NCBI GenBank assembly: GCA_000403215.2
Contig: KE159536.1
Span: forward strand, 43,295 to 107,294
DNA: 64,000 bases
Direction: 5' to 3'
Origin: Lachnospiraceae bacterium A4
GTDB taxonomy: Bacteria > Bacillota > Clostridia > Lachnospirales > Lachnospiraceae
Shown: piece after piece, positions 18,501-36,332 of the stretch
Layout: every line of letters begins with the position of its first letter
Numbering within the stretch: the stretch's first letter is position 1
Made by a program: the position numbers and the translations under genes
The notes under the pieces: generated by a model
Seen by the model: only the letters and a program-made list of their open reading frames with translations
The model's database searches: none
Told to the model about the DNA's origin: nothing

Positions 18501-20625
18501 CGCAGCATATGAAACTGGCGGGTATGAACCAGACCAAGCTTCCGAGGGCGCAGCATATGATACGAACAGGTATGAACCAGACCAAACTTCTGAAGGCGTA
18601 TCATATGAGACTGGTGAGTATGAACCAAACCAAACTTCTGAAGGTGAATCGTATGAAATTGGTGAGCATGAATCAGACCAAGCTTCTGAAAGTGCAGCAT
18701 ATGACGCGAACAGGTATGAACCAGACCAAGCTTCTGAAGGTGTATCGTATGAAACTGGTGAGTGTGGACTAGACCGAACTTCGGAAGGTGAATCATATGA
18801 AACTGGTGAGTATGGACCAGACCAAACTTCGGAAGGTGTATCGTATAATACGGGCAGGTATGAACTAGACCAAACGTCCGAAGGCGCATCGTATGATACT
18901 GACGGATATAAAACACAACAAGCTTCCGAAGGCACAGCGTATGATACTGATGGATATGAACCAGACCAAACTTTTGAAGATGCTTTGTACGAGTCTGGCG
19001 AATACGAGCAAGAGAGGGCTTCTGATACTGGGGCATATGAAGCAGGCGAATACGCACAGAATTTTGACGCCGCGGGTGCGGAGTATACAGGAGACATGTA
19101 TGCACCCGAAACTTATACGAAAGGTGCAGCATATGAAGCAGATACATATACAACAGAGGACGCTATAGAAAATGACAGTAACCTATCCCAAGTAGATGAC
19201 CAAGCTGCGATGTATGCGGCAGAGCGTTACACTGAAAATACAGCCTATGATACAGACGGATATGAGCCGCCGGATTCTGCGGAAAATGCGATGTATGCGG
19301 AGGACGGATACGCACCGGAGAACTATGGAGACAACACAGAATACACACCCGAGCAGTATGCGCCAGCAGGTTCTGCGGAAAATGAAGCATATAACGCCAG
19401 CGAATACACGCAGGAAATACCAGCTTCTGCCGCAGGTTACACCTCACCGGACTATACACAGCAGTTGTATACAGGAGAAGCTGCTTACATAGAGAATACG
19501 CCGCAGGACTATACACGAAAATCTTATGCAGAGGAGTCCGCCGCGTACTCAGAGGGCTACAGCGGGCAGAAGTCTTATGCAGAGGAGTCTGCCGCGTACT
19601 CAGAGGGCTACAATGAGCAGAAGCCTTACGCAGAGTCCGCTTCTAATGCACACAAGAAGCACAGCAGACGCCGCGAGGACGCAGAGCTGCTGCGGCAGCA
19701 GTTTCAGTACGACGAGAAGGCACTTGACCCTGAAGATGCGCAGAGCATCGCGGAGATGGCGATGGAGGACGCTCTAAAGACGCAGGAAATCAAGATGAAC
19801 ACGGCGGATTTGAGCTCGCTCTCCGAGAAGATTGTCGCTACGACCAAGAAGGAGGCAAAAGGTGCAAAGCGCGAGGAGCTGCGCGAATTTACACCGGACG
19901 AGCAAACGCTGTTTGAGAATTTTGCTGTCACCAAAAAAATAAAGAAGCAGATCATTCATGCCCTTGAAAATATGACGCTGACAGCTTACACTGGAAATGT
20001 CATTATCACAGGAGACGCCGGTCTCGACACTGTCAGAATGGCGAAAAACCTTGTGAAAGAGTATCAGGCATCTGACGAGAGCTTCTCAGGAAAGCTTGCG
20101 AAGATCACCGGGGAAAAAATCAATCAAAGAAATATCAAAGATGTCTTTGAGAAATTGAACAATGGTGGTATTATAATAGAGAAGGCAAATGGTATGAGTG
20201 AGGAGAAGCTGTATGAGATGGCGATAAACCTCAATCAAGAAAATCTCGGAATTGTCGTTATTATGGAGGATACTAAAAAAGAGATTACAAAACTTTTGGA
20301 AAAGCAGGCAATGATCGCAGACTATTTTAATATCAGAATCGACCTGATGGAGATGGATAACAACGCGCTGGTTGCTTACGCCAAAAACTATGCCTTGGCA
20401 TTGGAGTATTCCATTGATGAGTTAGGTACACTCGCCCTTTACACAAGAATAGCAAACATGCAGAGCGGAAATCATGTGGTGACAAAGGATGAGGTCAGGG
20501 ACATCATAGACGAGGCAATTTGGAAATCCAAGAAATCCAAGATTAAGAACTTTGTGGATGTGCTATTCGCAAGACGGTATGACAACGAGGACATGATCGT
20601 TCTCAAGGAAAGGGACTTTATGTAA
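15541..20625 (+). CDS. Giant TPR / Tyr-rich repeat / degenerate AAA-like protein
   Basis: A 1694-residue protein starting at TTG (15541) behind AGAGGTGA. Residues 1-190 form TPR-like helix pairs ('VSAVEYYKQFVKLAPKDSGVYTLRYRILEAQ'). Residues about 215-540 are low-complexity, rich in Tyr, Asn, Gln and Gly ('YDQTAY', 'YGQTAY'), and about 950-1400 again, with eleven 16-residue repeats at 988-1163. Charged helical stretches lie between. The C-terminal 270 residues are ordinary globular sequence resembling an AAA/CbbX-type NTPase: 'GNVIITGDAGLDTVRMAKNL' stands where a Walker A would be, but the GK[ST] is missing (GDAGLDT). 'NNGGIIIEKANGM' takes the place of Walker B, and sensor-like and lid-like helices follow. 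No signal peptide is seen, so it is cytosolic. glgB follows 17 bases later and is probably co-transcribed. I infer a scaffold role; I know no named function. Confidence 0.75.
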   Translation: MDKYEYKVRSEEISKLIDKEKYAEAVKIADTIDWRRVKSVTMLLRIAALYRVSRRNDDSREMLLLAYDRYPTNRSVVHSLCELSIEMEDVVSAVEYYKQFVKLAPKDSGVYTLRYRILEAQEVSLEERIEVLEELKKKDYQEEWAYELAYLYHRIGLATKCVEECDDIILWFGDGPYVMKAMELKAMHVPLTDIQQKNYDIMLGNAAENYSSENYDYGSNDANDKIVNFNPRNNNVENDTENYIENDIQDNYTAQDYGTDGYDENFSVQDFAGSGYENAAYGQEAYTENGYDQTAYNQTPYDPNGYDQTAYAQDGYGQDEYHDNNYDPKEYHAEQYAGNNSYDQTAYGGNDSFAQYPNNDYEQSGYNADSYTENAYAQGEYANSRYAGDNSYDQNAYSEEPYTDNQEYGQTAYSTEPYTGQGGSGQNEYGTEPYAYTDNPYGQTQYGTEQYTENGYGQADYTNEHYPDNSFDPNQYVDDGYGNLSYNDGTYQENSAYPDTPYQENGYTEAFYVEQIYDENGNLINLDSDPGASYPQTQEPPLSRQYRNGLHLVENKKAAAGESDDMSQYNTINLQKVVAESMKELFPDDDEDVFAEDREKYNSGEDIKSITERNTRVFANIADAQAQRGRRAVQPAAEQDPDEAEGPYNYFTQTGRIAQMVTGVSETAPEPHTGAIKKVYVPGDDARLIKTDADMNELRDITEKSVSDEQSWIESNEENVYHEQSIMEMNGTDSASKKRATGPMKIDEVLVEWERMKLDNAKKHQEEIKQHVLTQTGKIFVNFDNSIKSGILGELEREEEEARRSSQADKALRKERAARKQFLEADVTGDIPQRTASDDDFDVEYVTEHSSRGTAAPQTQERAPASEKPARTVKSEAELREAYLDMLERVISRELGKEAEEQNEVAKDISAETGKTVPSNPSQNTAEAAAQTAYPLETGGHAQDAPAEYAQETYTDVETDPADSLIEAAAYASENCTEYESEQAFEGAAYETGGYEPDQASEGAAYDTNRYEPDQTSEGVSYETGEYEPNQTSEGESYEIGEHESDQASESAAYDANRYEPDQASEGVSYETGECGLDRTSEGESYETGEYGPDQTSEGVSYNTGRYELDQTSEGASYDTDGYKTQQASEGTAYDTDGYEPDQTFEDALYESGEYEQERASDTGAYEAGEYAQNFDAAGAEYTGDMYAPETYTKGAAYEADTYTTEDAIENDSNLSQVDDQAAMYAAERYTENTAYDTDGYEPPDSAENAMYAEDGYAPENYGDNTEYTPEQYAPAGSAENEAYNASEYTQEIPASAAGYTSPDYTQQLYTGEAAYIENTPQDYTRKSYAEESAAYSEGYSGQKSYAEESAAYSEGYNEQKPYAESASNAHKKHSRRREDAELLRQQFQYDEKALDPEDAQSIAEMAMEDALKTQEIKMNTADLSSLSEKIVATTKKEAKGAKREELREFTPDEQTLFENFAVTKKIKKQIIHALENMTLTAYTGNVIITGDAGLDTVRMAKNLVKEYQASDESFSGKLAKITGEKINQRNIKDVFEKLNNGGIIIEKANGMSEEKLYEMAINLNQENLGIVVIMEDTKKEITKLLEKQAMIADYFNIRIDLMEMDNNALVAYAKNYALALEYSIDELGTLALYTRIANMQSGNHVVTKDEVRDIIDEAIWKSKKSKIKNFVDVLFARRYDNEDMIVLKERDFM
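18502..19029 (+). repeat. Eleven in-frame 48-bp repeats (16 residues each)
   Basis: Units follow the pattern [AV]-[AS]-Y-[ED]-T-G-x-Y-E-P-D-Q-[TA]-S-E-G, for example AAYETGGYEPDQASEG. All are in frame and conserved mainly at protein level, with many third-base differences, so copy number is old enough for drift. Confidence 0.9.
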
Positions 20626-24718: not shown

Positions 24719-24965
24719 TTTCAACCTTCCTTATTTGTTGTTCATTCATGCTTCCAAGATGCCTCTGCATATAAGCAGGAGAATTTCCTGCCTATGTGCA
24801 AAACAGCAAGCCTATTATATCATAAAAAATGCAGTATGGGCAGATGTTCATTCTGGAAAATCGACTCATTTTCAATATAAACCTGAGATCTGATTGGCAT
24901 CATAACATATTCTGCTGATTTTTTTCATAGGATAAATCAAGAGTAATATGAGGGTGTTAAGAACT

Positions 24966-25616
24966 ATGATGAATTACATCTGGGGCGGTATGCTCATCAT
25001 TGGAATTATCTTTGGTGTCGTGACAGGAAATATGCAGGCGGTGACAGACGCGGTGCTGCAGTCCTCCAAGGAGGCGGTCACACTTGGCATATCAATGTTT
25101 GGCATTGTTGCATTTTGGACAGGGCTGATGGAAGTGGCGGGAGAAGCCGGAGTCATAGCAGGGCTCACAAGGCTGATCGCGCCATTTATGCGTTTCTTGT
25201 TTCCTCAGATTCCCAAAGGCCATAGAGCTTGGGATTCGCTGTCGGCAAACTTTGTGGCGAATATACTAGGGCTTGGCTGGGCGGCGACGCCGGCGGGATT
25301 AAGGGCGATGAGTGATTTGGAGGAACTTGAGCGGGAGCGGGGGAATGAGGAATATATGGATGCAAAGGTGGGTATGGCAGCTTCAAATGGTTTTGCGGAT
25401 TGCGGGGCGCGGACGGCAAGTAATGAAATGTGTACGTTTCTTGTGATGAATATTTCGTCTTTGCAGTTGATACCGGTGAATATTATTGCTTATCGCAGTC
25501 AGTATGGGAGTGCGAATCCGGCAGCGGTGATTGCGCCCGCGATTGTGGCGACGTTTTTTAGTACGGTGGTGGCGGTGATATATTGTAAACTTATGGATAG
25601 AAAGCAAAGAATATAA
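24966..25616 (+). CDS. spmA: Spore maturation protein A, nucleoside-recognition (Gate) domain
   Basis: A 216-residue membrane protein of the SpmA type, needed for spore core dehydration in Bacillus. The N-terminal helix 'YIWGGMLIIGIIFGVVTGN' and 'AVTLGISMFGIVAFWTGLMEVAGEAG' are typical. The Gate domain continues through 'NFVANILGLGWAATPAGLRAMSDLEEL', the variable loop and 'ARTASNEMCTFLVMNISSLQLIPVNIIAY' to a final membrane helix. The ATG at 24966 follows GAGGGTG; an in-frame ATG at 24948 has no site. spmB, normally next to spmA, is not in the window. Three further copies of the 3' half (from the codons for GLRAM onward) lie downstream, so this gene is probably a chimera of a native 5' part and an element-borne 3' part joined near 25295. 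Confidence 0.9.
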   Translation: MMNYIWGGMLIIGIIFGVVTGNMQAVTDAVLQSSKEAVTLGISMFGIVAFWTGLMEVAGEAGVIAGLTRLIAPFMRFLFPQIPKGHRAWDSLSANFVANILGLGWAATPAGLRAMSDLEELERERGNEEYMDAKVGMAASNGFADCGARTASNEMCTFLVMNISSLQLIPVNIIAYRSQYGSANPAAVIAPAIVATFFSTVVAVIYCKLMDRKQRI

Positions 25617-26031
25617 CGCTCTTTGCTTTTTGGGATTAAAAATGTACTCATTATTTGTTGGCATAATTTTAAAAAATGACAACAAATTTTTGGTTTCATA
25701 TTTTTTTTAAAGTTCGTGTCAATGACTTGACACAAGGGTGATTGCGGGCAATAAGTGATATGGACTGAAACTATGCTTATAGTCTAATCAAAAATTTGAA
25801 ATATGTACATTTTGTTTTTATTTATTATGAATTGGTAAAAATATTTATTTAATGCATTTATGAAACAGTGAATAAGAAAGTTTTAGATATTAGAAACCAA
25901 ATATAAATTCGTTAAATATAGAATAATAATAAATAAATCTTAAACAAATTAGATTATTTTATGTGATAAAATAATGAAAAATACAAATATTATGCTCTTG
26001 AAACTTATATTTTATGTATCATAAAATGTGA
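25617..26031. other. AT-rich gene-free stretch after spmA
   Basis: No gene is supported here. It holds a decayed boundary repeat at 25709-25763 and otherwise very AT-rich DNA, marking the sharp drop in GC at the start of the cassette region. Confidence 0.6.
25709..25763 (+). repeat. Decayed cassette boundary (boundary repeat plus spmA stub)
   Basis: Matches the boundary sequence found before the three partial spmA copies (AAAGTTCGTGTC..., CTTGACACAAGGG, TTGCGGGCA). It then shows ATAAGTGATATGG, a mutated form of ATGAGTGATTTGG. The GGA codon has become TGA and the remaining spmA 3' part is gone. Confidence 0.7.
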
Positions 26032-26059
26032 TTGACATTTCGGGAAAATATTTTATAAT
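26032..26059 (+). promoter_or_regulatory. Consensus promoter of the integrase-like gene
   Basis: TTGACA (26032-26037), 16 bases, TATAAT (26054-26059). Both hexamers are perfect, followed by AGGGGGAA as ribosome binding site. Confidence 0.75.
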
Positions 26060-26082
26060 AGTAAAAAAATAGGGGGAATGAA

Positions 26083-27063
26083 ATGGATTATAAAGATATT
26101 ACAAATAGTTTTATAAAAGAATATCCTGATTATAAGAGTGATGTGAGGAATTTTAGTGAATATTTAGAAAAATATTGGGAGAATTCGTTGTCAGGTGATC
26201 CGCTTCGTATTTTATTGAAAGGCATAGATGTTGAGTTTATATTAAAGAGTTTAATTTACAATGTGGAAAATGTAAATAGGTATAAAACAAAGACAAAAGC
26301 GAAACGGTATGCAACTGTGGTCGGCCAGCTCTTCAATTACATTCGAAAAGAGACGGATATTGTGAATTCTGACTTATATGATGAAATTTCATATAATCGA
26401 TTACGCGAAAATTCATATATGCAGCAAATGATGGCATATATTGAAAAATCTGAGCTATTAGCAGGCATTGTGGAACAGGAACCACTAACATCCAGTCAGG
26501 CTGAAAAAATTTTAAATTGGGCAAATGAACAATTTGTTGAACAAGACTGGGAAGATACAACGAACTTTAGAAAAGCAATGGCAGCCATTGGAATGAAAAT
26601 GATGATGCTGTATGGGATTACTTACCGTGAATTGAGAAAAGTAAAATGGGATGACTATGACGAATTGCATAGTTGTATTGTTATTAATGCGTTTGAACTT
26701 CGCCTACCTCTAAAATTATCCGAACAGTTAAAAGACATGAAAGAGTTTGTACGAAAAAAGAATATTGTAAATAAAGACGAGCTTTTGTTTACAGATTGTT
26801 TTGGTGAACCATGGGCAGAGGTCACATCATATTCTGGAATTCCTGATTATATGGGAGCTTTGATTGGGATTACCAGCGTTACAAGCACCGTAAAGTATGG
26901 AATCAGTCAATTGTTAAAGGCAGGTTTAAGTGATTCTATTATAAAGAAGATGACAGGAGCAAGTGAGAAATTGATTCAGGGTTGCTTATTGCAGGAGGAT
27001 AATGAATTGAAAAAAATTATAAATACAAAAATTCTTATGGCTGAGCACTACTATAATTTTTAA
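26083..27063 (+). CDS. Tyrosine-recombinase-fold protein lacking catalytic residues
   Basis: A 326-residue protein laid out like a phage integrase: an N-terminal SAM-like core-binding part (about 1-140) and a C-terminal catalytic-like part. Around residue 185, 'MMMLYGITYRELRKVKWDDYD' aligns with the usual TGLRxSELxxLxWxDID box, but the catalytic Arg is Thr. The 'LRLPLKLSEQL' strand lacks the usual Lys. The HxLRH box aligns with 'VTSTVKYGISQLLKAGLS', without His or Arg. The nucleophilic Tyr position ('GASEKLIQGCL') is Cys. By eye every catalytic residue is replaced while the fold-determining hydrophobic pattern persists, so it probably binds DNA but cannot cut it. It is AT-rich, with its own consensus promoter, inside the spmA cassette region. 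Confidence 0.65.
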   Translation: MDYKDITNSFIKEYPDYKSDVRNFSEYLEKYWENSLSGDPLRILLKGIDVEFILKSLIYNVENVNRYKTKTKAKRYATVVGQLFNYIRKETDIVNSDLYDEISYNRLRENSYMQQMMAYIEKSELLAGIVEQEPLTSSQAEKILNWANEQFVEQDWEDTTNFRKAMAAIGMKMMMLYGITYRELRKVKWDDYDELHSCIVINAFELRLPLKLSEQLKDMKEFVRKKNIVNKDELLFTDCFGEPWAEVTSYSGIPDYMGALIGITSVTSTVKYGISQLLKAGLSDSIIKKMTGASEKLIQGCLLQEDNELKKIINTKILMAEHYYNF

Positions 27064-27097
27064 AAAATTATATAATTTTGGAAAGGTGGTAATTAGT

Positions 27098-27355
27098 ATG
27101 TCAATATTGCAGAAACAAGTGATACAGTCTCTTGATGGTTTGTCTGAGGATAATTTACAGTTTTTATTTGACATGATTCAGCGGTTTATGAAACCCAGCG
27201 GAATTGAAGAAAACAATAATGAAAAATCAGATATAGTTAGAAATGGTGTGCGTAGAATTGGCAGTTTAGAGGGGCAGGATTTAATTGATGCAGATTATGA
27301 TATTGATGCGTGTAATGATGAAATTGCAGAAATGTTCGGGGTAAACGATTTATGA
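27098..27355 (+). CDS. Antitoxin of a PIN-type toxin-antitoxin pair
   Basis: An 85-residue acidic protein. The N-terminal 'LQKQVIQSLDGLSEDNLQFLFDMIQRFM' resembles the opening helices of small VapB/DUF2281-like antitoxins. The C-terminal 'GSLEGQDLIDADYDIDACNDEIAEMFG' is the usual acidic toxin-binding tail. It overlaps the PIN toxin start by four bases (ATGA). The ATG at 27098 has GAAAGGTGG upstream; a GTG at 27086 is inside that site. It should neutralise the toxin and autorepress the operon. Confidence 0.75.
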   Translation: MSILQKQVIQSLDGLSEDNLQFLFDMIQRFMKPSGIEENNNEKSDIVRNGVRRIGSLEGQDLIDADYDIDACNDEIAEMFGVNDL

Positions 27356-27756
27356 AAGTATTGATAGACACACATATAGCAATTTGGGCTGTGCTAAATG
27401 ATCCTAAATTACCAAAACAGGCAAAAGACATTATTCTTGACAAGGCAAATGACATATTTTATAGCACTGCTTCTGTGTGGGAAATTACAATTAAGTATAT
27501 GTTGCATCCGGATAAACTTCGCATGAATGGAAATCTTTTAGAAAAGGGATGTGAAGAAAACGGATACCTTGTATTGCCTATTTTAAACAAACATGTTTCA
27601 GCATTGGAAACATTGACGTGAACAGAAAATGCGCCTCGCCACAATGATCCGTTTGACAGAATTATGGTGGCTCAAGCAAAAGCAGAAAGCTTTATGTTTC
27701 TAACACATGATTCTTTGATTCCGTATTATGACGAACCATTTATTATTTTAGTTTAG
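27352..27756 (+). pseudogene. PIN-domain toxin with an in-frame TGA
   Basis: A VapC-like PIN ribonuclease of 134 codons. 'MKVLIDTHIAIWAV' carries the first catalytic Asp and 'ASVWEITIKYMLHPDKL' the conserved Glu. After a TGA at 27619-27621 the same frame goes on with 'ENAPRHNDPFDRIMVAQAKAE', holding the downstream Asp residues, and 'FLTHDSLIPYY', then TAG. The truncated 89-residue product lacks the downstream acidic residues of the active site and should be harmless. TGG to TGA is the simplest change, but the original residue is not certain. Confidence 0.85.
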
Positions 27757-28009
27757 TAGATGATAGTAAAATTTTCTAAACAATATAGATTTTGCTATTA
27801 AGAGGCAAGTACAATTTGCTATAATCGGATTAAAGGCACAAGTTCAGTGTTTTTTGCTGGAAGTAAAAGTCACTTCCGATAAGTTATATTATAACGGATT
27901 ATGAAAGCAGGAGTTTTTAAAATGACATCCTGCTTTTATGATATGGATTCTTTATTTATTGACATGATTTAACAATGATGGAAAATATGTGATTTTATAA
28001 ATTTTTCAA

Positions 28010-28050
28010 AAAGTACGTGTCACTACCTAGACTCAAGGGGGACTGCGGGC
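28010..28050 (+). repeat. Cassette boundary repeat 2
   Basis: The 41-bp boundary sequence beginning AAAGTACGTGTCACTACC and ending GGGGGACTGCGGGC. Here the palindrome reads CCTAGACTCAAGG, one base off CCTTGACTCAAGG. It runs without a break into spmA-homologous codons. Confidence 0.85.
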
Positions 28051-28051
28051 G

Positions 28052-28357
28052 ATGAGCGACTTGGAGGAACTTGAACGGGAGCGGGGGAACGAGGAATATA
28101 TGGATGCAAAGGTGGGGATAGCAGCTAATGGTTTCCTAGATTGTGGGGCAAGAACTGCAAGCAATGAGATGTGCACGTTTCTTGTGATGAATATTTCGTC
28201 GCTGCAGTTGATACCAGTGAATATTATTGCTTACCGCAGTCAATATGGGAGTGCAAATCCTGCGGCAGTCATTGCACCTGCAATTGTGGCAACGTTTTTC
28301 AGTACGGTGGTGGCGGTGATTTACTGTAAAGTTATGGGTAAGGAATCTAGAATGTAA
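28052..28357 (+). pseudogene. spmA 3' part, copy 2
   Basis: A reading frame of 101 codons from ATG matching residues about 115-216 of SpmA: 'MSDLEELERERGNEEYMDAKVG', a variable loop, then 'ARTASNEMCTFLVMNISSLQLIPVNIIAYRSQYGSANP...' to the last membrane helix. Homology extends four codons upstream (GLRA). The frame is fully open and most differences from copy 1 are silent. AAGGGGG about 10 bases before the ATG could allow translation of this C-terminal fragment, but it lacks the first half of the Gate domain. Confidence 0.85.
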
Positions 28358-28465
28358 ATGCACGTTGCCTTTAGATATGTGAAGGGATTATAAAATAAGT
28401 ATCAAAAGTGATACATACTAAGAACGAAAATAGTAGATGTACATTGTCTTAATTCAATCTCTTTA

Positions 28466-28494
28466 TTGACGGCCTTTCTTTAAAAAGCTATAAT
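28466..28494 (+). promoter_or_regulatory. Promoter of the NTPase operon
   Basis: TTGACG (28466-28471), 17 bases, TATAAT (28489-28494), about 40 bases before the first start codon of the operon. Confidence 0.75.
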
Positions 28495-28533
28495 TACTTT
28501 AAAATAGGGAGTAAAATGGGAAAGGACTAAAGT

Positions 28534-28941
28534 ATGCTTGTTGCAGATAAAAAGGATATTTTGACATCATATAATCTGGAGAAAATATTGAAAGAGTTAG
28601 GAACTGTTAAGGAATAACTTTTTAATAGTGCGCAGGATTTTTCTTCGAGAGTGCCGCTCAAAAATCAGGCGCATAGCGGGCTATGTAACTGATTTTTGAG
28701 TGGTGCTATCGGAGAAAAAGACAAACAATATGAAAAGTTATTTTTGGACAGTTCCTTAGGACAACAGGGGAATTTCAGGTTTCCGCAATTAGCCACTGTA
28801 CATAAGAATGTAGTCGTTGCAGAAACTTATCATCAGCTTTACCGATATTGTATCAGGACACAGGAAAAACAGCAGGATAAAGAGGAAAAAATGGAAGAAA
28901 CCTTAAATAATGTTGCGTGTTGGATCGAGGAAGGGATGTGA
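28534..28941 (+). pseudogene. Small gene interrupted by a MITE, first gene of the NTPase operon
   Basis: The ATG at 28534 (AAAGGA upstream) opens 22 codons, 'MLVADKKDILTSYNLEKILK' then EL, up to the MITE at 28600. After the element and one copy of the TTA duplication, the same frame resumes at GGA 28759 as 'GQQGNFRFPQLATVHKNVVV' and continues to a TGA at 28939-28941. The restored protein would have 82 residues, charged and mostly helical, of unknown family. It ends six bases before the NTPase ATG, so it was translationally linked to it. As it stands, the first part reads into the element and stops early. Confidence 0.75.
28600..28755. mobile_element. MITE-like element, copy 2 (156 bp)
   Basis: Starts GGAACTGTTAAGGAATAACTT and ends AAGTTATTTTTGGACAGTTCC, an imperfect terminal inverted repeat of about 20 bp. 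It is flanked by TTA duplications (28597-28599, 28756-28758). The centre is another palindrome around 'CTCAAAAATCAG'. It interrupts a small gene. Confidence 0.85.
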
Positions 28942-28946
28942 TTTCA

Positions 28947-31580
28947 ATGTTGTTATATACATGGAAAGATGTGGAAAGAAAACTATTGTTAAACAAGGAT
29001 AAATGGGGAACTGTAATTGTTGATATAGAAACATATACCGATGAGGTGATTGTTCACTTAAATGAAGAGGGCACGGAAAAAGATGCTGACACTTTATTTG
29101 ATGAGATTTTTGATAAAAAATATGAAAATGAAAAACATAGAATTTTGTTGGATTTAACAGATGAATATTTAAATGTTACTTTTGAGATTGAAGAAGGTGG
29201 AGAAAAAAAGAGTGTGGTAGCACCGCTTTTTAAAAGTGTCTTATATCAAAAATCTGCATACTATGATGCGCTGATCGAAAAAGAACTTCCCGGAGTACCT
29301 GTGATTGCTTTCCATTCATATAAGGGAGGAGTAGGACGCACATTGTATTTACTAGCGTTTGTTAAGGCATGGTCTTCATTAAAGGATATGAAAAATCCCA
29401 AAAAGCTTCTCGTTGTAGATGCGGATATAGAGGCTCCGGGAATTACATGGTTGACCAAAGGCCAGGAGGAAGCGGCATTTAGTTTTTTAGATCTTTTAGA
29501 GATAACACAGGAAAAGGAGAACGTGGATGAAATTATTGAATTGATCTCGGATAAAATGTCGGAATTATCAATTAAGATAGAAACTGAAAAAACCATTGTG
29601 GAACATATTGTTTTGCCAACGTATAGATATATAGAGCAGTTGCTGGATATGTATTCAAGTCCTGAGAGTCTTGCCATTAGCTATAGTAAGAAATATGTTC
29701 TGTCAGAGGTTTTGTCAAAATTGGGTGAGAAAGTAAATGCAGAACTGGTTTTAGTTGATTTGCGCGCAGGATTAAGCGAATTTTCAGCGCCGTTGTTATT
29801 TGATCCAAGAGTAAAGAAATATCTTGTAACATCAACATCTTATCAGTCAGTAAAGGGAACAGAGATTTTATTAAACCAGTTAAGCAAAGGATTACCATTG
29901 AATGAAAATTCTAAAATACCCGAAATCTTATTAACAATGGTGCAGGAAGGTGTGACTACCAGTGATATTATTAGTGAATTAGTCGCTGTATATGATCAAT
30001 ATATGACAGATGACAGGGTTTTTATCACGGATGATATTGTGACAGTACTTCCTTTTGCGAGTGAACTTGTTCATTTGGAGTCTCTTCCTAAAATAATGAA
30101 GAATTTAAATGGAAGAGATTTTTATAAAAATATTTGTGAGATTGTACAAAATAGTTATATAGCACCAAGCAGAGTACAAATGCAAAATTACAAATTATCG
30201 CGTGATAAGATCATTAAATGTATCCATGATTTCGCTGCAAACCAGATTACTGCGGAAGGAAATGGTACATTTGAAGTATTAATGACAGACTCCATTCAGA
30301 ATCTAATAAAGAAATATAAAAACAGTGTTCCAAATACAGTAATCATGGGAGCCAAAGGATCAGGGAAAACATTTTTATACAGAGAGATATTAAGGGATCA
30401 ATATTGGGAAAACTTTATAAAGCGTATGGATAAAAATGGAATGCATACAGCAGTTCCCGATGCGGATATGCGTACACTGATTGTCCCACTCTTAGCTTCT
30501 GGCAACGCAGGGGGGGTTCCTAAAATTATAGAAAATGCTATATGTAATTATAGCAAGTGCAACTTGAAAGGTAAAATCAACAATTCTGTATATGTACACA
30601 GCAAGGACATGCTGTTGGAATATATGAGAAATGAGCATGATATATTGGAGTGGAAAGAAATTTGGAAAAAAGTCGTATTAGATGCTGTTAATAAAGCATA
30701 TCAATCATTAGAAGAATTTGAGGAGGAATTGAAACAAAAGTGCATTAAAGTTGTATTTTTAATTGATGGTTTAGAAGAGATTTTTCAGCATACGATTTTA
30801 TCGCAAAATGAAAGAAATGCCGTCGCAGCATTATGCAGGGATTTAATTGATGAAGTGAAGATATCATATCACAATTTGGGTTTTATGATATTTTTGAGAA
30901 AGGATATGGTACGGGACTCGCTGACGATCAATTATGAGCAGTTTCATTCACTCTACCGTTCGGTCGAATTGCAGTGGTCAAGTACGGAAGCATTAAGATT
31001 AGCAGCTTGGCTGACTAGTCAGGCTGTATCAGATTTTTATGAGGAGGATGTTCCACTTGAAATGGCGCCAAGAGATGTAATTGACCAGACACTTCATAAA
31101 TTATGGGGAGTGAAACTTGGAAAGCCGACTTCCAATGAAGCAAATTCATCGAGATGGATTTTGGCGGCATTATCAGATTTTAATGGACAATTACAGGCGC
31201 GGGATATCATAAGATTTTTGGAAAAAGCGACTGTAAATGCAGGTAAACCTGTTTATACAGATAGGTATTTAATGCCTACAGAAATCAAAAAAGCTGTATC
31301 AGAATGCTCAACGGATAAGATTGGTGAAATAAGGGATGAAATTAAAGCACTTGGACCAATCTTTGATAAGCTGGAACATGCGCCAGCAGAAGATAAAATT
31401 TTACCATTTTCTGGTGACACATTTCAGCTCACACAGGGAGAAGAGAAAATTATGAAGCAGGAAGGTTATTTAAGGATAGATAATGATAGGTATTATTTAC
31501 CCGAGATTATCAGGCACGCCTTAAAATTTAAATATGGGAAAGGCGCCCGTCCCAAGGTACTTTCCTTATTACTAAAATAA
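28947..31580 (+). CDS. KGGVGR-variant ParA-like ATPase fused to P-loop NTPase
   Basis: An 877-residue protein with two NTPase modules. Residues 1-115 form an N-terminal acidic beta-rich domain. Near residue 125 'FHSYKGGVGRTLYLLAFVKAW' is a deviant Walker A of the ParA/MinD kind, in which the usual GKT is GRT. 'LLVVDADIEAPGITWL' and 'ELVLVDLRAGLSEFSAPLL' are the matching A' and Walker B strands. Near residue 467 'NTVIMGAKGSGKTFLYRE' is a second, ordinary Walker A, and 'IKVVFLIDGLEEIF' near 605 is its Walker B, giving a STAND/AAA-like module with a helical C-terminus. KGGVGR-variant ATPases are known from predicted bacterial conflict systems. The ATG at 28947 is preferred; a GTG at 28938 is possible. 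It is AT-rich, and a promoter and a disrupted small gene lie upstream. Confidence 0.8.
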   Translation: MLLYTWKDVERKLLLNKDKWGTVIVDIETYTDEVIVHLNEEGTEKDADTLFDEIFDKKYENEKHRILLDLTDEYLNVTFEIEEGGEKKSVVAPLFKSVLYQKSAYYDALIEKELPGVPVIAFHSYKGGVGRTLYLLAFVKAWSSLKDMKNPKKLLVVDADIEAPGITWLTKGQEEAAFSFLDLLEITQEKENVDEIIELISDKMSELSIKIETEKTIVEHIVLPTYRYIEQLLDMYSSPESLAISYSKKYVLSEVLSKLGEKVNAELVLVDLRAGLSEFSAPLLFDPRVKKYLVTSTSYQSVKGTEILLNQLSKGLPLNENSKIPEILLTMVQEGVTTSDIISELVAVYDQYMTDDRVFITDDIVTVLPFASELVHLESLPKIMKNLNGRDFYKNICEIVQNSYIAPSRVQMQNYKLSRDKIIKCIHDFAANQITAEGNGTFEVLMTDSIQNLIKKYKNSVPNTVIMGAKGSGKTFLYREILRDQYWENFIKRMDKNGMHTAVPDADMRTLIVPLLASGNAGGVPKIIENAICNYSKCNLKGKINNSVYVHSKDMLLEYMRNEHDILEWKEIWKKVVLDAVNKAYQSLEEFEEELKQKCIKVVFLIDGLEEIFQHTILSQNERNAVAALCRDLIDEVKISYHNLGFMIFLRKDMVRDSLTINYEQFHSLYRSVELQWSSTEALRLAAWLTSQAVSDFYEEDVPLEMAPRDVIDQTLHKLWGVKLGKPTSNEANSSRWILAALSDFNGQLQARDIIRFLEKATVNAGKPVYTDRYLMPTEIKKAVSECSTDKIGEIRDEIKALGPIFDKLEHAPAEDKILPFSGDTFQLTQGEEKIMKQEGYLRIDNDRYYLPEIIRHALKFKYGKGARPKVLSLLLK

Positions 31581-31632
31581 ATGTCAATTCTATTAATAAG
31601 GTTTAGACTAAAAAGATAAGGAATACACAGAG

Positions 31633-32091
31633 ATGAAAAAAGTTGAAAAATATGACGCTGATAAACTAGAGTGGAATTTAATTTCGAAGGAAGAGGTTTC
31701 ATTACTGAAAATGAAGCTTGGAAAAAGCCACAGAAAAGAATCTGACTGGGAAGTCATAAAGGATATTTTGGGGAGACACAATGTGATTACATTTATTCCG
31801 CCCAAAAGGGAGAAAGGGCTTACAACGATTGAAAAGGTACTTTGTGAGAATGGAAATCTGATTGTTTTTACAAACATGGAGGACTGTACACGGCATATTC
31901 AGATTGTACAGTTCAAAGGGAAATTTCGGAAATATGTCGAGATTGGTTCTATTCCATTTGCGAATGTTTTGGATATCGCAGACCAGCATGGCATGAATGT
32001 TCTTATTGATGTGAATTACGAAGTTAATTGTAAGTGCCTCATGTATGAGTCCAGAGAACAACGATTAAAAGCTGTTATCATGACATATTAG
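31633..32091 (+). CDS. Hypothetical protein, possibly SseB-like
   Basis: A 152-residue cytosolic protein, third gene of the NTPase operon (52 bases downstream). The C-terminal half, 'LIVFTNMEDCTRHIQIVQF...EIGSIPFANVLDIADQHGMNVLIDVN', has the strand-helix order of SseB N-terminal domains: a short '(V)FT' strand, then 'PF..(L)L.IA...G..(V)(L)I'. The match is weak and not proof. The N-terminal 60 residues are charged and helical. It is conserved only by context: it lies between the NTPase and the next spmA copy and so travels with this cassette. Confidence 0.6.
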   Translation: MKKVEKYDADKLEWNLISKEEVSLLKMKLGKSHRKESDWEVIKDILGRHNVITFIPPKREKGLTTIEKVLCENGNLIVFTNMEDCTRHIQIVQFKGKFRKYVEIGSIPFANVLDIADQHGMNVLIDVNYEVNCKCLMYESREQRLKAVIMTY

Positions 32092-32187
32092 AAATGAAGA
32101 TGTCATGCTTTTATGTATTAATTTTTTGAATTGGTAAAATATTATAAAAAACCGAATAATAAGTTTCTAGTTTTAAACAACTTTTAC

Positions 32188-32229
32188 AAAGTACATGTCA
32201 CTACCTTGACTCAAGGGGGACTGCGGGCA
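32188..32229 (+). repeat. Cassette boundary repeat 3
   Basis: Same boundary as at 28010 and 33842 (AAAGTACATGTCACTACC..., GGGGGACTGCGGGCA), with a perfect CCTTGACTCAAGG palindrome. Confidence 0.85.
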
Positions 32230-32541
32230 ATGAACGATTTGGAGGAATTGGAGCGGGAGCGCGGGAATGGGGAATATATGGACACAAAAACAGCTCCAGC
32301 TACCTCAAGCGGTTTTATGGATTTCGGGACACGGACGGCAAGTAATGAAATGTGTACTTTTCTTGTGATGAATATCTCGTCGCTACAGCTCATACCAGTG
32401 AATATTATCGCGTATCGCAGCCAGTATGGGAGTGCCAATCCGGCGGCAGTGATTGCGCCCGCGATCGTGGCGACGTTTTTTAGTACGGTGGTAGCGGTGT
32501 TTTATTGTAAGGCAATGGGAAAACATAGTGTAAAAATTTAG
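32230..32541 (+). pseudogene. spmA 3' part, copy 3
   Basis: 103 open codons. 'MNDLEELERERGNGEYMDTK' is followed by a loop of different sequence and length ('TAPATSSGFMDFGTRTASNEM'), then the conserved core identical in protein to the other copies and an end at 'YCKAMGKHSVKI'. Many silent differences separate it from copies 1 and 2. Confidence 0.85.
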
Positions 32542-32788
32542 TTTTTTAAGACAATGATAAGGATACATATGGGTATGAGCAAAAAATGAAACACGATATG
32601 TAATTGCATTATAATCAAAAGAAAATTTAAACTATAGAAAAAAGACGTGGTTGAACAGTCTGTTAATCAATGTTATACTGTAAATGTGGCATGATATAAA
32701 ATAAATTTAAAAAGACCTCTGATAAAGAAACTGCTATTTCACATAATTATGTAGTCAGATATTTTGATTTAGTGGAGAAAAACTACTT
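32542..32788 (+). promoter_or_regulatory. Intergenic region with promoter TTGAAC-N17-TATACT
   Basis: No gene. The hexamers at 32651-32656 and 32674-32679 are spaced 17 bases. The surrounding sequence (TTGAA...TGTTAAT...TGTTATACT) resembles the promoter after spmA copy 4 (34180-34208), so these two cassettes share a promoter segment. Confidence 0.5.
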
Positions 32789-33087
32789 GTGACTGAAAGC
32801 TTAGAAAAAGGTTTTTATGAATTTGAGAGAAAATATTTTTCTAAGTATTTTTTAGAGAAGACACGGATTTGAAATGGAATTATTACCTTATTACAAAATT
32901 AGAAAAACAAAAAACGGAAAAAGAACTTTTGTTAAAAGAATGTGTTCATAGAGAGCAGGAGTTAGAGCAGGAATATAAAAAATCAATGGACGAAAATATT
33001 TCTTTTTCAGAGCAGGAATGGGAGGAGTATCAGTTAAAAGCAAAAGGATTACAGGCACTTAAAAAAATATGGAAAAAGAGTGTGTAG
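32789..33087 (+). pseudogene. Short helical gene, probably frameshifted
   Basis: Two overlapping frames look like one gene: GTG 32789 to TGA 32870-32872 ('VTESLEKGFYEFERKYFSKY...'), then from TTG 32869 (TTGA overlap) to TAG at 33087 ('KWNYYLITKLEKQKTEKELL...ALKKIWKKSV'). The second part is a strongly charged coiled-coil-like helix of 72 residues. Neither start has a convincing ribosome binding site. Either one base was lost or gained around 32868, or these are two remnants. No family recognised. Confidence 0.35.
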
Positions 33088-33193
33088 CATTTGTATTGAT
33101 ACAGAATGTTGTGAGACACAAGGAGCGATATGATGTAGGAATAGATGTTTTTATTAAAAACATTTTAAAGGACAGGTAAATGACTTATGGCAA

Positions 33194-33697
33194 GTGAGCA
33201 AAAAAGGGAAGAAAAACAGCAGTTTAATGGATGCCAATGCAATCCTTCCAGGAGATGATACAGAATTGCTTCCAGAAACATATGTGATATTTATTACAGA
33301 AAATGATGTGCTAGAGGGGAATCTCCCTATTTATCATATTGATAGGACAATTAAAGAGAACGGAAAAATATTTGATGACGGGGCGCATATTATATATGTA
33401 AACGGAGAAATTAAGAACGATACACCATTGGGACGATTGATGTATGACTTAAACTGTTCCGACCCGGATAATATGAATTATAAAGAATTGGCCGATCGAG
33501 CAAGATACTTTAAAAGAGATAAGGAGGGACAAAAAATTATGAGCAGAATTATGGAAGAAATTGTAAATGAAGAAAAGATTGAAGCAGCAAAGCGTATGCT
33601 GGATGATGGCGAGTTAACTATTGATAAGATAGCAAAATATTTAGCGCTTCCGATTGAAATTGTAGAGAAATTGGCAGACAGTCTGCAACTCGTGTAG
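33194..33697 (+). pseudogene. Rpn-family PD-(D/E)XK nuclease, C-terminal fragment
   Basis: 167 codons matching the C-terminal part of recombination-promoting nuclease / putative transposase (PDDEXK_2) proteins: 'SSLMDANAILPGDDTELLPE', 'TYVIFITENDVLEGNLPIYH' and 'TPLGRLMYDLNCSDPDNMNY' are family-typical. The N-terminal third with the nuclease active site is missing. The frame starts at a GTG within unrelated-looking sequence, so the protein should be inactive. The end ('ELTIDKIAKYLALPIEIVEKL') is the usual helical tail. Confidence 0.75.
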
Positions 33698-33841
33698 ATG
33701 GTCACAAGTGAATAGCTGATTTTAGAAAGCAGGAAACCTTTGTATAGGAGAAGTCCTGCTTTTATTATATAGATTTACTTGCTTTGGTATAATTCGACAA
33801 TAAAAGAGAGGAAAAATCCATTATTATAAGATGTTTTTGAC

Positions 33842-33883
33842 AAAGTACGTGTCACTACCTTGACTCAAGGGGGACTGCGGGCA
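33842..33883 (+). repeat. Cassette boundary repeat 4
   Basis: The best-preserved boundary: AAAGTACGTGTCACTACC, the perfect palindrome CCTTGACTCAAGG, then GGGGACTGCGGGCA, continuing directly into spmA codons. Confidence 0.85.
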
Positions 33884-34183
33884 ATGAGCGATTTGGAGGA
33901 ATTGGAGAGGGCGCGTGAAAACAGCGAATATGTAGACGAGGGAGCATCAACTGGTTCTTTGGGGAGTTTGACAAATTATGGAGCGCGGACTGCAAGCAAT
34001 GAGATGTGCACATTTCTTGTGATGAATATATCGTCATTGCAGTTAATACCAGTGAATATTATTGCCTATCGCAGCCAGTACGGGAGCGCCAATCCGGCAG
34101 CAGTCATCGCACCTGCAATTGTGGCAACGTTTTTTAGTACGGTGGTGGCTTATTGCAAAATAATGGGGAAAAACTGTAGTTGA
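33884..34183 (+). pseudogene. spmA 3' part, copy 4
   Basis: 99 open codons. It is the most divergent copy in the loop ('RARENSEYVDEGASTGSLGS'), but again identical through 'TASNEMCTFLVMNISSLQLI' and the following 'PVNIIAYRSQYGSANPAAVI'. Two codons are missing in the last helix ('STVVAYCKIMGKNCS'). It is the rightmost copy, so under the insertion model it is the oldest displaced 3' end. Confidence 0.85.
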
Positions 34184-34208
34184 AGCTCTTGTTAATTGAT
34201 GTTATACT
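34180..34208 (+). promoter_or_regulatory. Promoter overlapping the end of spmA copy 4
   Basis: TTGAAG (34180-34185), 17 bases, TATACT (34203-34208). It resembles the promoter at 32651-32679 and could drive the DUF2589 genes. Confidence 0.5.
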
Positions 34209-34242
34209 AATAATTGGAAATTATTTAAGACAAATTTAATAA

Positions 34243-34287
34243 GGAATTGTAGGAAAATAAGTGATGCAGATTGCGCAGGTATATTGT
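34243..34287. mobile_element. MITE-like element, half copy
   Basis: GGAATTGTAGGAAAATAAGTG and the following 'GATGCAGATTGCGCAGG' match one arm of the elements at 36187 and 42258. The other arm is missing. It is preceded by TAA. Confidence 0.65.
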
Positions 34288-34413
34288 TTTTATAATGGTT
34301 TACTGCCAATTATCTATTGGAATAAATTTAATGATGTTGAAAGACTGATAATGATTACTTTATAAATATTGCAAGAGAGAAAAAGTCGATAATGATAGAA
34401 AGGAGCAAACAAT

Positions 34414-35031
34414 ATGGCAGATTATGGTAATGAAATTTCTTCTATTAGTTTAGGCAGCATTATAGGGGGTGCATTAAGTGCAATTGTAGAAGCACAAAGT
34501 CAAGCAGCACATACCACAGTTAATTTTATAAATGAAGTTGGCTTTGAAGGAAAACAAGGAGAAAGAAAACCGGTATATATAGATTTTCAATACGAAAAAA
34601 TGATTATACCTGAAAAGGAAACTCAGCAGGAAGAAGCAGAAAAACAAAAACAAATTACCTCTTTAAAAGTACCGCTTTTAACAATGGTGCCTATTCCCTA
34701 CATAAGAGTAGATGATGCTACAATTGATTTTAATGTAAAAATAAATTCTGTGCAAGAAACAAAAACATCATCTGATCTAAACTATGGCGGAAAAACGGAA
34801 GCATTTGCTAATTATAATGGATTTCGTTTTAAAACAGGAATTAAATTAAGCGCTTCTATTTCCAATCAGAAAAAAAGCAGTACATCAGATACCGTAAAAA
34901 GAGATTATTCTTTAAATATTCATGTTCATGCAAAGCAAGATGATATGCCTGCTGGTGTAGAGCATTTATTAGATTTACTTTCTGATGCATCTTCTACAAA
35001 TACTTATATTGAAAAAATATCTAACAAATAA
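34414..35031 (+). CDS. DUF2589 domain-containing protein
   Basis: A 205-residue protein with the DUF2589 signature: 'SLGSIIGGALSAIVEAQSQA' at the N-terminus, then 'LKVPLLTMVPIPYIRVDDATIDFNVKINSV' and the strand-rich 'DYSLNIHVHAKQDDMPAGVEHLLDLL'. Family function is unknown; members often occur in pairs. It is AT-rich with a good AGAAAGGAG site, and a second related short gene follows after 18 bases. There is no signal peptide. The middle 'SASISNQKKSSTSDTVKRDY' looks like an exposed loop. Confidence 0.8.
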   Translation: MADYGNEISSISLGSIIGGALSAIVEAQSQAAHTTVNFINEVGFEGKQGERKPVYIDFQYEKMIIPEKETQQEEAEKQKQITSLKVPLLTMVPIPYIRVDDATIDFNVKINSVQETKTSSDLNYGGKTEAFANYNGFRFKTGIKLSASISNQKKSSTSDTVKRDYSLNIHVHAKQDDMPAGVEHLLDLLSDASSTNTYIEKISNK

Positions 35032-35049
35032 AAGAAAGGGAAATAAATC

Positions 35050-35247
35050 ATGATAACATTTGGTGAATTTGCAGGATTACTGATAACTGATTTTTTGCAG
35101 GCACGTAAAATTGCAGATACTTATAGTGCAGCTTTATCTCAGGAATATTATGTTAATCCAGTTTTAAAAGGCATGCCTGTTCCACACTATACCATTGATG
35201 AAGCAGAGATTGATGTTCCTATGAAAATTATGGGAGTAAAAAAGTAG
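35050..35247 (+). pseudogene. Second DUF2589-type protein, probably 3'-truncated
   Basis: 65 codons, 'MITFGEFAGLLITDFLQARK...VLKGMPVPHYTIDEAEIDVP', equal to the first part of the partner protein usually encoded beside DUF2589 genes ('GMP(V/I)PHYT..EAEI'). It stops after 'MKIMGVKK', just 7 bases before a lanthipeptide-dehydratase fragment that lacks its own N-terminus. That suggests a deletion joined the two genes. It starts with ATG behind AAAGGGAAA. Confidence 0.6.
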
Positions 35248-35254
35248 AAATTAC

Positions 35255-36175
35255 ATGAGAACAGATTTGCTCATAACACAAACTTTAGTTTATTTTAACA
35301 ATTTTTTAGAGGAAGAATTTCGTATTCCTATTTATCAAATTGAGTTATTAAAGGATGATACCGGAATTATGGAGTTTGTAACGCATACAGAAAATATGAC
35401 TCAAGAACAAGCACACTCCTATTTCTTAAAGTTTGGTGTATTAATGTGTTTTATCAAACTATTTGGTATTGGAGATATTCACTATGAAAATATAATTGCT
35501 ACAGTACAAGGTCCTGTTATAGTAGATTTAGAATGTGCTTTAAATCCAATTATTATAAAAACAGAAAGCATAAAAGATACATGCATTGGTATGATAAAAG
35601 ATTGTTTTCAGCTAGGAAAAATAAAAAATGCTACTTTTACAGTTGAAAAACAATTTCATCCTTTGACCCATTGGAAAGCTGATATAGTAAAAGGTTTTTT
35701 AACAGCAGCCAGATGTTTCGAAGATAATCAAGATGATTTTGTACAACATTATTTTAATTTATTTCAAGAACCTCTTTTTTGCAGAATTGTTCCTATGGAA
35801 ACAGGGGATTTTTATACTCTTATATATCGTATGATTTATAGTAATAAAGAGATAATAGAACATATGTTGCAAACTATTTTGTCAAACATTTCTAAATTTT
35901 TAAAACTAATCTGGAATATCGAAGAAAATTTTATTGATAAAGGAGTTATTTGGCAGTCTGTCTATGAAAATTTATTTTATGGAAATATTCCTTTTTTGCA
36001 ATTAAGCATTAATATTGTAGATGGACATGCCTATTATATATTTTATATTAATGGTGAGCCTTTTGTACAAACAATCAAACGTCCTCTCGCTGCCTTGGAA
36101 ATTGAATTTAGAAATCAAATTAATTGGTTAAATTCATCAAACGCAAAAGATTCTATAACAAGCTTAATTGGTTGA
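35255..36175 (+). CDS. LanM-like dehydratase (DUF4135) fragment
   Basis: 306 residues matching the second half of the dehydratase domain of class II lanthipeptide synthetases. The key segment 'YFLKFGVLMCFIKLFGIGDI' continues with HYENIIA and 'VIVDLECAL'. It keeps the kinase-like catalytic set Asp, His, Asn (GDIHYEN) and the metal-binding Asp (VDLE). The N-terminal 250 or so residues of LanM and the whole C-terminal LanC cyclase domain are missing, and no precursor peptide gene is visible. It could be a remnant of a lanthipeptide cluster or a stand-alone DUF4135 protein. No convincing ribosome binding site precedes the ATG, which favours a remnant. Strongly AT-rich. Confidence 0.65.
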   Translation: MRTDLLITQTLVYFNNFLEEEFRIPIYQIELLKDDTGIMEFVTHTENMTQEQAHSYFLKFGVLMCFIKLFGIGDIHYENIIATVQGPVIVDLECALNPIIIKTESIKDTCIGMIKDCFQLGKIKNATFTVEKQFHPLTHWKADIVKGFLTAARCFEDNQDDFVQHYFNLFQEPLFCRIVPMETGDFYTLIYRMIYSNKEIIEHMLQTILSNISKFLKLIWNIEENFIDKGVIWQSVYENLFYGNIPFLQLSINIVDGHAYYIFYINGEPFVQTIKRPLAALEIEFRNQINWLNSSNAKDSITSLIG

Positions 36176-36186
36176 CTACATCTATA

Positions 36187-36332
36187 GGAACTGTAGAAAA
36201 ATAACTGACGCATCCTGACTTGGCGATTTCTCCGATTATGCATGCCAAAAAGCCTCGCCGCAGCCCGCTTTAGCAATTTCACCTCGAAGAAATATCCTGC
36301 GCAATCTGCATCACTTATTTTCCTGCAATTCC
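36187..36332. mobile_element. MITE-like element, copy 3 (146 bp)
   Basis: Starts GGAACTGTAGAAAAATAACTG and ends with the complement of GGAATTGCAGGAAAATAAGTG. The interior 'CTCGAAGAAATATCCTGCGC' is shared with the copy at 42258. No clear target duplication at this copy. Confidence 0.8.

Follow-up and report, generated by a model that had tools for sequence, protein, structure and literature searches.

In a 64,000-nucleotide stretch of the genome of the spore-forming gut bacterium Lachnospiraceae bacterium A4 (contig KE159536.1, positions 43,295 to 107,294; hereafter "the window"), the intact sporulation gene spmA is followed by a row of orphan copies of its own 3′ half, with different cargo between them. 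We consider it likely that this region is an attachment-site array of a family of serine-recombinase elements, with further reshuffling within the 3′ halves, probably through homologous recombination. The units of the array have in common one site and one adjoining 38-bp sequence (the right arm), the recombinases are linked to both the arm and spmA, units recur in different species, and the copies in the window have separate ancestries.

A repeat search of the window retrieved a single repeat family with four copies of 300 nt (at 25286, 28027, 32208, and 33862; 66–83 per cent to the reference copy), and in a tblastn search of the whole genome spmA matched once at full length and three times in part (query residues from 113), with every match on this contig and in the array (Table 1). 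In all four copies the shared part begins at the codons for GLRAM, with the GGA triplet at 25296, 28040, 32218, and 33872, and the orphans are in frame. The DNA between the copies is AT-rich (GC content of 1-kb intervals mostly 0.29–0.39 versus 0.43–0.50 just upstream). The searches bear out the layout described in the original prediction: an intact spmA, three copies of only its 3′ part, and a decayed stub, all copies starting at the same codons and separated by different AT-rich cargo. The stub opens the second unit (25739–28039) in place of a 3′ copy. AT-rich DNA continues past the last 3′ copy to approximately 36.2 kb, where no further spmA copy occurs; the part at 34184–36230 holds an open reading frame (ORF) with a DUF2589 match and an ORF matching part of DUF4135/LanM.

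All three orphan copies have the same arm in front, ending TTGACTCAAGGG or TAGACTCAAGGG. The arm is no part of spmA and stands before every later site, the decayed one included. At up to three mismatches, the arm pattern has four matches in the 6.96-Mb genome, all in the array, and the reversed pattern has none. The arm also supplies the orphan copies with a putative in-frame TTG (or near) start at 28028, 32206, and 33860, from which the predicted product would begin MTQGGLRAM.

Among 38 genomes of the genus, the spmA 5′ half was found in 33 and the 3′ half matched in 31, with at least two matches in eight and a copy number of one to four. A 3′ end preceded by the arm is present in ten (G000, G001, G005, G016, G019, G021, G023, G027, G029, and G036), and in five (G001, G018, G019, G024, and G036) spmA is cut at the GLRAM codon by one conserved left end, so that 12 of the 38 genomes have one feature or the other. 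The arm core TTGACNCAAGGGGG has 16 exact matches in 11 of these genomes (reversed control: one match). In 15 cases an spmA 3′ end follows directly; the remaining match, in G025, lies inside an unrelated ORF and was set aside as chance. Across 19 aligned sites, the rows of which are not all independent, 31 of the 38 arm columns are at least 80 per cent conserved versus 2 of 42 columns further upstream. The left-end motif (up to three mismatches) matches five times in five genomes, always directly behind a truncated spmA 5′ half, and its control gave no match. Outside the genus, the spmA gene of G319, with a 5′ half that is 53 per cent identical, is interrupted by this left end as well, and in more distant Lachnospiraceae an extra 3′ copy is preceded by the arm (L108) or by a cut arm (L111). 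The scan of named relatives took in 80 of 386. Of 397 sampled genomes of the family, just two of which belong to this genus, the window's genome and G319 alone showed the arm-plus-site pattern, which is therefore not widespread in the family.

Relatives were expected, according to the original prediction, to include empty sites and to differ in cassette number, and a search for orphan 3′ ends behind the boundary repeat was suggested. The copy numbers and arm-preceded ends given above agree with this, and so does the flank: in COE1 (G001), the DNA from the last 3′ copy rightward as far as spmB shows synteny with the right flank of the single spmA of G020 and G014 (spmB 82–87 per cent identical).

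COE1 also holds a large element at this site. On scaffold KE159628.1, 28,774 bp separate the site of the spmA 5′ half from that of the first 3′ end with an arm in front, and near the right end of the element lie genes for large serine recombinases, three in a row (Resolvase, Recombinase, and Zn-ribbon domains; Pfam), in an order that is the same in COE1, G019, and G319. The element also codes for ParA, ParB, a sigma-like protein, an HTH_16 protein, metal-ATPases, a MATE protein, and a weak RepA_N match; 1,860 of its bases are masked, and no relaxase, secretion, conjugation, or phage structural domain was found among the 19 of its approximately 31 ORFs that were scanned. Genes for the third recombinase were found in 2 of the 38 genus genomes (E ≤ 1e-150) and in 1 of 298 sampled family genomes (E ≤ 1e-170), and all three chromosomal loci found at these strict thresholds have the arm and an spmA 3′ end no more than 1 kb away.

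In the autonomous members, the conserved left end is TTGAGTTATTATAGTGACAGG and the 38-bp right arm ends TTGACWCAAGGG. Read toward the GG core, the element ends match at 15 of 24 positions (G019 right arm and G024 left end) and form an imperfect palindrome; this match was reached by 17 of 100,000 shuffles, and shifts of 1–3 positions give 3–9 of 24. An imperfect palindrome of the joined ends is expected for the attachment site attP of a serine integrase. The element splits spmA at the same codon in six genomes (G001, G018, G019, G024, G036, and G319), in which only the 5′ half is left there, and site-specific insertion has therefore occurred repeatedly. Repeated integration at the GLRAM codons had been proposed in the original prediction and stands; its further proposal, that the elements restore the 3′ end with a copy of their own, does not hold for the recombinase-bearing elements, which bring no spmA 3′ end.

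Joins to window-like DNA connect these recombinases with the small units. On the metagenomic contig L176, recombinase genes run on into DNA of the 152-aa ORF that lies beside the arm of the window's third unit (91 per cent over 155 bp, to the contig end, with that unit; 92 per cent over 299 bp with G023). Contig L177, which carries a recombinase relative at 60 per cent, stops in a likely arm start (15 of 17 positions match; the next best of 11,126 places matches at 12), and Rpn-like DNA of the window's fourth unit also lies between recombinases and arm in COE1. The right ends of the small units are therefore right ends of such elements.

The window's second unit encodes an integrase-like protein of its own, and its weak match to a PHROGs integrase could make it the inserting enzyme. 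We find this highly improbable: tblastn found no match to it in the 20 other genus loci compared, though the same arm and site are present there, and its catalytic residues appear absent by eye. No Pfam or NCBIfam family matches it above the cut-off, and a single-sequence structure model gave no usable fold match, the model being too poor to be informative (predicted local distance difference test score of 45). In L148 (10444–11475), a 343-aa ORF that immediately follows spmA matches no family and does not really resemble the integrase-like ORF. The linked enzymes are serine recombinases and not, as in an integron, an IntI-type tyrosine integrase, and the match of the integrase-like ORF is weak. 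A phage origin was rejected: the arm pattern has no exact match in viral_contigs, where two recombinase relatives support the link to the elements instead.

Over a 56-residue core, pairs of copies differ by 14–23 silent codons and 0–4 replacements, and the copies have therefore diverged under selection as real spmA ends, as had been proposed; the accompanying claim of identical protein cores is correct for copies 1 and 2 only, with one residue changed in copy 3 and four in copy 4. In a tree of 28 of the 30 copies (two were dropped for short frames; 7 of 25 inner branches are well supported), a single clade for the four window copies was rejected (approximately unbiased test; P-value = 0.000577), and every window copy is closest to a copy in another genome or species (87.0, 83.6, 81.8, and 82.1 per cent). 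The 5′ and 3′ halves of spmA disagree in both directions (90 versus 72 per cent for G002 and G021; 74 versus 83 per cent for G004 and G016). Cargo units (toxin–antitoxin, defence-like ATPase, and Rpn-like) recur across species, and units are shared between species at 96–98 per cent.

These comparisons bear on whether the spmA 3′ end was duplicated in tandem within one genome and unrelated DNA inserted afterward. Copies within G001 (90 per cent) and within G005 (87 per cent) are indeed closest to each other, a pattern that gene conversion would also produce. The window copies, however, are neither one clade nor each other's nearest relatives, and the arm is foreign to spmA yet the same before every later copy. 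Local duplication was rejected for the window on the clade test and the nearest-copy comparison, in agreement with the original prediction that the copies are not recent local duplicates, and overall it is very unlikely.

An artefact of assembly or binning of draft genomes is scarcely credible as an explanation of the array. Many of the relatives are metagenome-assembled genomes and several arrays are broken over contigs, but the window array lies inside a 130-kb contig and that of COE1 inside a 1.1-Mb scaffold, and arm and junctions agree among independent assemblies.

We compared edges between units of different genomes, leaving out the sister pair G007/G020. Two of the four pairs that are alike to the left of the arm lose similarity at the site, and one of the eight informative pairs that are alike to the right of the 3′ copy (G021_c2/G029_x) has its break at the site, the 3′ half staying with the cargo over its full length.

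Other observations weigh against an array built by site-specific integration of recombinase-bearing elements. Besides the similarity of copies within G001 and within G005, one of the four right-edge pairs loses similarity approximately 32 bases into the 3′ half and another is too weak for a judgement; in two of the eight left-edge pairs the 3′ half is raised above background, and in the five others, all of the BrnT/BrnA unit, the proximal 3′ half is at background and the cargo 87–98 per cent alike. The window's genome is without a recombinase of the COE1 type at E 1e-150, no retrieved unit that begins with an spmA 3′ end also holds the recombinase triplet, and neither a circle nor excision was observed. 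G018 and G024 carry the split 5′ half, and the 3′ half was found in neither. In G019, the assembly of which is 9 per cent contaminated, the left end passes after approximately 1.7 kb (L074) into flank-like DNA, and the recombinases and 3′ half are on another contig.

Similarity that fades inside the 3′ half, as it also does between the window's fourth unit and G023, points to homologous recombination as well. Taken further, homologous recombination could explain the entire array: a single old insertion would have left the arm beside a 3′ half, and RecA-type crossing-over between the 300-bp halves, which are long enough and usually about 80 per cent alike, would have spread the units. In at least five of the eight left-edge and one of the four right-edge comparisons similarity fades within the 3′ half and not at GLRAM, which fits this account. 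We nonetheless consider it unlikely, as different arms, some accompanied by Rpn-like DNA, some not, and some by recombinase genes, stop at an identical base in 19 sites from several genera, the edges described above that break at the site do so on both sides of the units, and the left end splits spmA in six genomes. A model with site-specific integration only was rejected, given that left edges of shared units often lie within the 3′ half. The best reading is thus site-specific deposition at GG combined with homologous exchange inside the 3′ halves.

Under this combined reading, attB would be the conserved spmA stretch for ATPAGLRAM, with the cut at GG in the glycine codon. Mobile elements that carry a triplet of adjacent large serine recombinases would integrate there, the autonomous members splitting spmA. 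The window would hold deposits of several events in a stack on the right of the functional spmA, as units that combine an spmA 3′ end with the 38-bp arm and with cargo derived from the elements or left behind by them. We propose that small units may arrive as circles, with recombinases provided in trans acting at the GG core, that an incoming circle may restore spmA with the 3′ end that it carries, and that homologous recombination between 3′ halves may later move and blend units. At some point an spmA 3′ end would have taken the place of an element's left end.

The original prediction had the 3′ end replaced at GLRAM itself. The site is the right one, but most shared units do not have their left edge there. 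Its proposal that the newest unit lies next to spmA is weakly supported: in G005, copies decay stepwise with distance (the first intact, the second frame-shifted, and the third full of stops), but in the window the site closest to spmA is the most decayed one. The separation of spmB from spmA, which had been taken as a sign of displacement, is weak evidence for it, as spmB is on a different contig, more than 61 kb away, and an array of approximately 9–11 kb is insufficient by itself to account for this.

The cargo of the genus units and L111 comprises BrnT/BrnA, PIN, a nucleotidyltransferase/HEPN pair, an AbiLi-like AAA protein with its partner, the KGGVGR ATPase, and Rpn-like genes; the cargo features of the window are given in Table 1. 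The PIN-domain ORF of the second unit (27352–27757) is broken by an in-frame stop, and the frame is open in G007. DNA resembling the window's Rpn-like cargo sits before the arm in G001, G023, G027, and G029. A hairpin resembling a miniature inverted-repeat transposable element occupies 28596–28765 of the third unit, a stretch left unaligned in the otherwise 97 per cent alike unit of G021. In G020 (L055) and G007 (L057), the antitoxin and PIN cargo directly follows spmA, with neither an orphan 3′ copy nor the arm, which suggests that these loci are decayed arrays. Away from the array, the window contains a 1694-aa ORF (15541–20625) with a long low-complexity stretch rich in Tyr, Gln, and Asn.

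Table 1. Features of the spmA array in the window.
Feature	Coordinates	Strand	Remarks
spmA, intact	24948..25616	+	222 aa; Gate domain PF07670
Putative 2-bp crossover core GG, Gly codon of GLRAM (attB in spmA)	25296..25297	+	common to all copies and junctions; exact dinucleotide inferred
Decayed right-arm site with stub	~25701..25766	+	stub from ~25739, ~28 bases resembling the spmA 3′ start
Integrase-like protein (cargo)	26083..27063	+	326 aa; weak PHROGs integrase match, E 0.00068
Small putative antitoxin ORF and PIN-domain ORF (cargo)	27086..27621	+	
38-bp right arm	28002..28039	+	
Orphan spmA 3′ copy c2	28040..28357	+	
KGGVGR-type AAA ATPase with STAND-like part (cargo)	28917..31580	+	NF047398, E 1.3e-42; PADLOC candidate defence PDC-M28B, E 1.6e-16
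152-aa ORF adjoining the arm of the third unit (cargo)	31633..32091	+	
38-bp right arm	32180..32217	+	
Orphan spmA 3′ copy c3	32218..32541	+	
Shortened Rpn-like ORF, fourth unit (cargo)	33194..33697	+	
38-bp right arm	33834..33871	+	
Orphan spmA 3′ copy c4	33872..34183	+	

With some reserve, one may speculate that spmA acts as an integron-like growing point: a spare back half of the gene, carried by every circle, would serve for attachment as well as repair, each arrival would rebuild the gene together with the entry site, and an open-ended, addiction-stabilized array of defence and toxin–antitoxin genes would be fed in trans by spmA-splitting elements that may excise during sporulation. That toxin–antitoxin cargo helps the array to resist deletion is our guess.

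The locus brings together the splitting of sporulation genes by serine-recombinase elements and the tandem stacking of cassettes at a fixed site, two themes that are usually apart. Half of a conserved protein gene would serve as the portable attachment unit, and the host's spmA 3′ half would be swapped between species along with defence and toxin–antitoxin cargo. A three-recombinase system with its target in a conserved codon motif is testable, and the arm plus GLRAM is a marker for locating mobile cargo in gut Lachnospiraceae.

In an open library searched for spmA with serine recombinases or prophage insertion, we found no paper that names spmA as the target of such elements. As far as the accessible parts of the cited papers go, serine-recombinase elements that split sporulation genes (gin; PMC5595907), gene-splitting serine integrase triplets (PMC4701971), and tandem islands at one target with 3′-end repeats (PMC3146451) are already known; the combination of a split sporulation gene with a tandem array, and the 106-codon portable 3′ half, appear to be new. 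The comparisons that follow refer to the same parts of these sources.

The gin element in gerE of Bacillus cereus (PMC5595907) resembles the autonomous element. It is 28.6 kb long, has no phage genes, and carries three serine recombinase genes, as against 28.8 kb and three such genes in COE1, and both elements split a sporulation gene. In gin, girC lies apart, whereas the three recombinase genes of COE1 are together at one end; sporulation-specific excision was demonstrated for gin, whereas the spmA element is known from its sequence; and a cassette array, present at spmA, is not mentioned in the available part of the gin paper. Integrative and conjugative and integrative and mobilizable elements of streptococci (PMC4701971, PMC5704250) likewise have three adjacent large serine integrase genes at the element end, disrupt a gene by insertion, and accrete in tandem when decayed. 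Their targets are mutT, traG, hsdM, and others, and gene repair by carried 3′ halves is not described in the parts available; the scan of 19 of the approximately 31 ORFs of the COE1 element turned up no conjugation gene.

The array itself resembles in plan the tandem arrays at ssrA and the staphylococcal cassette chromosome (SCC), where units are also bounded by target 3′-end repeats and an element-specific arm. The ssrA islands of Dehalococcoides (PMC3146451) lie in tandem downstream of one target, between repeats of the target 3′ end, with a conserved motif beside each repeat that is absent from the target; they have a large serine recombinase and include islands without an integration module. 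Their repeat is 20 bp long, at the end of an RNA gene that is kept whole, whereas the repeat at spmA is approximately 300 bp (106 codons) of a protein gene. SCC and the Enterococcus cassette chromosome at rlmH (PMC6222049) share serine recombinases, a fixed site in a conserved gene, att repeats, and remnant and composite islands with the array described here, but their site is at the rlmH 3′ end, with att repeats of approximately 50 bp and the gene whole. The ssrA and SCC arrays thus keep their target whole, whereas the autonomous elements at spmA leave only its 5′ half.

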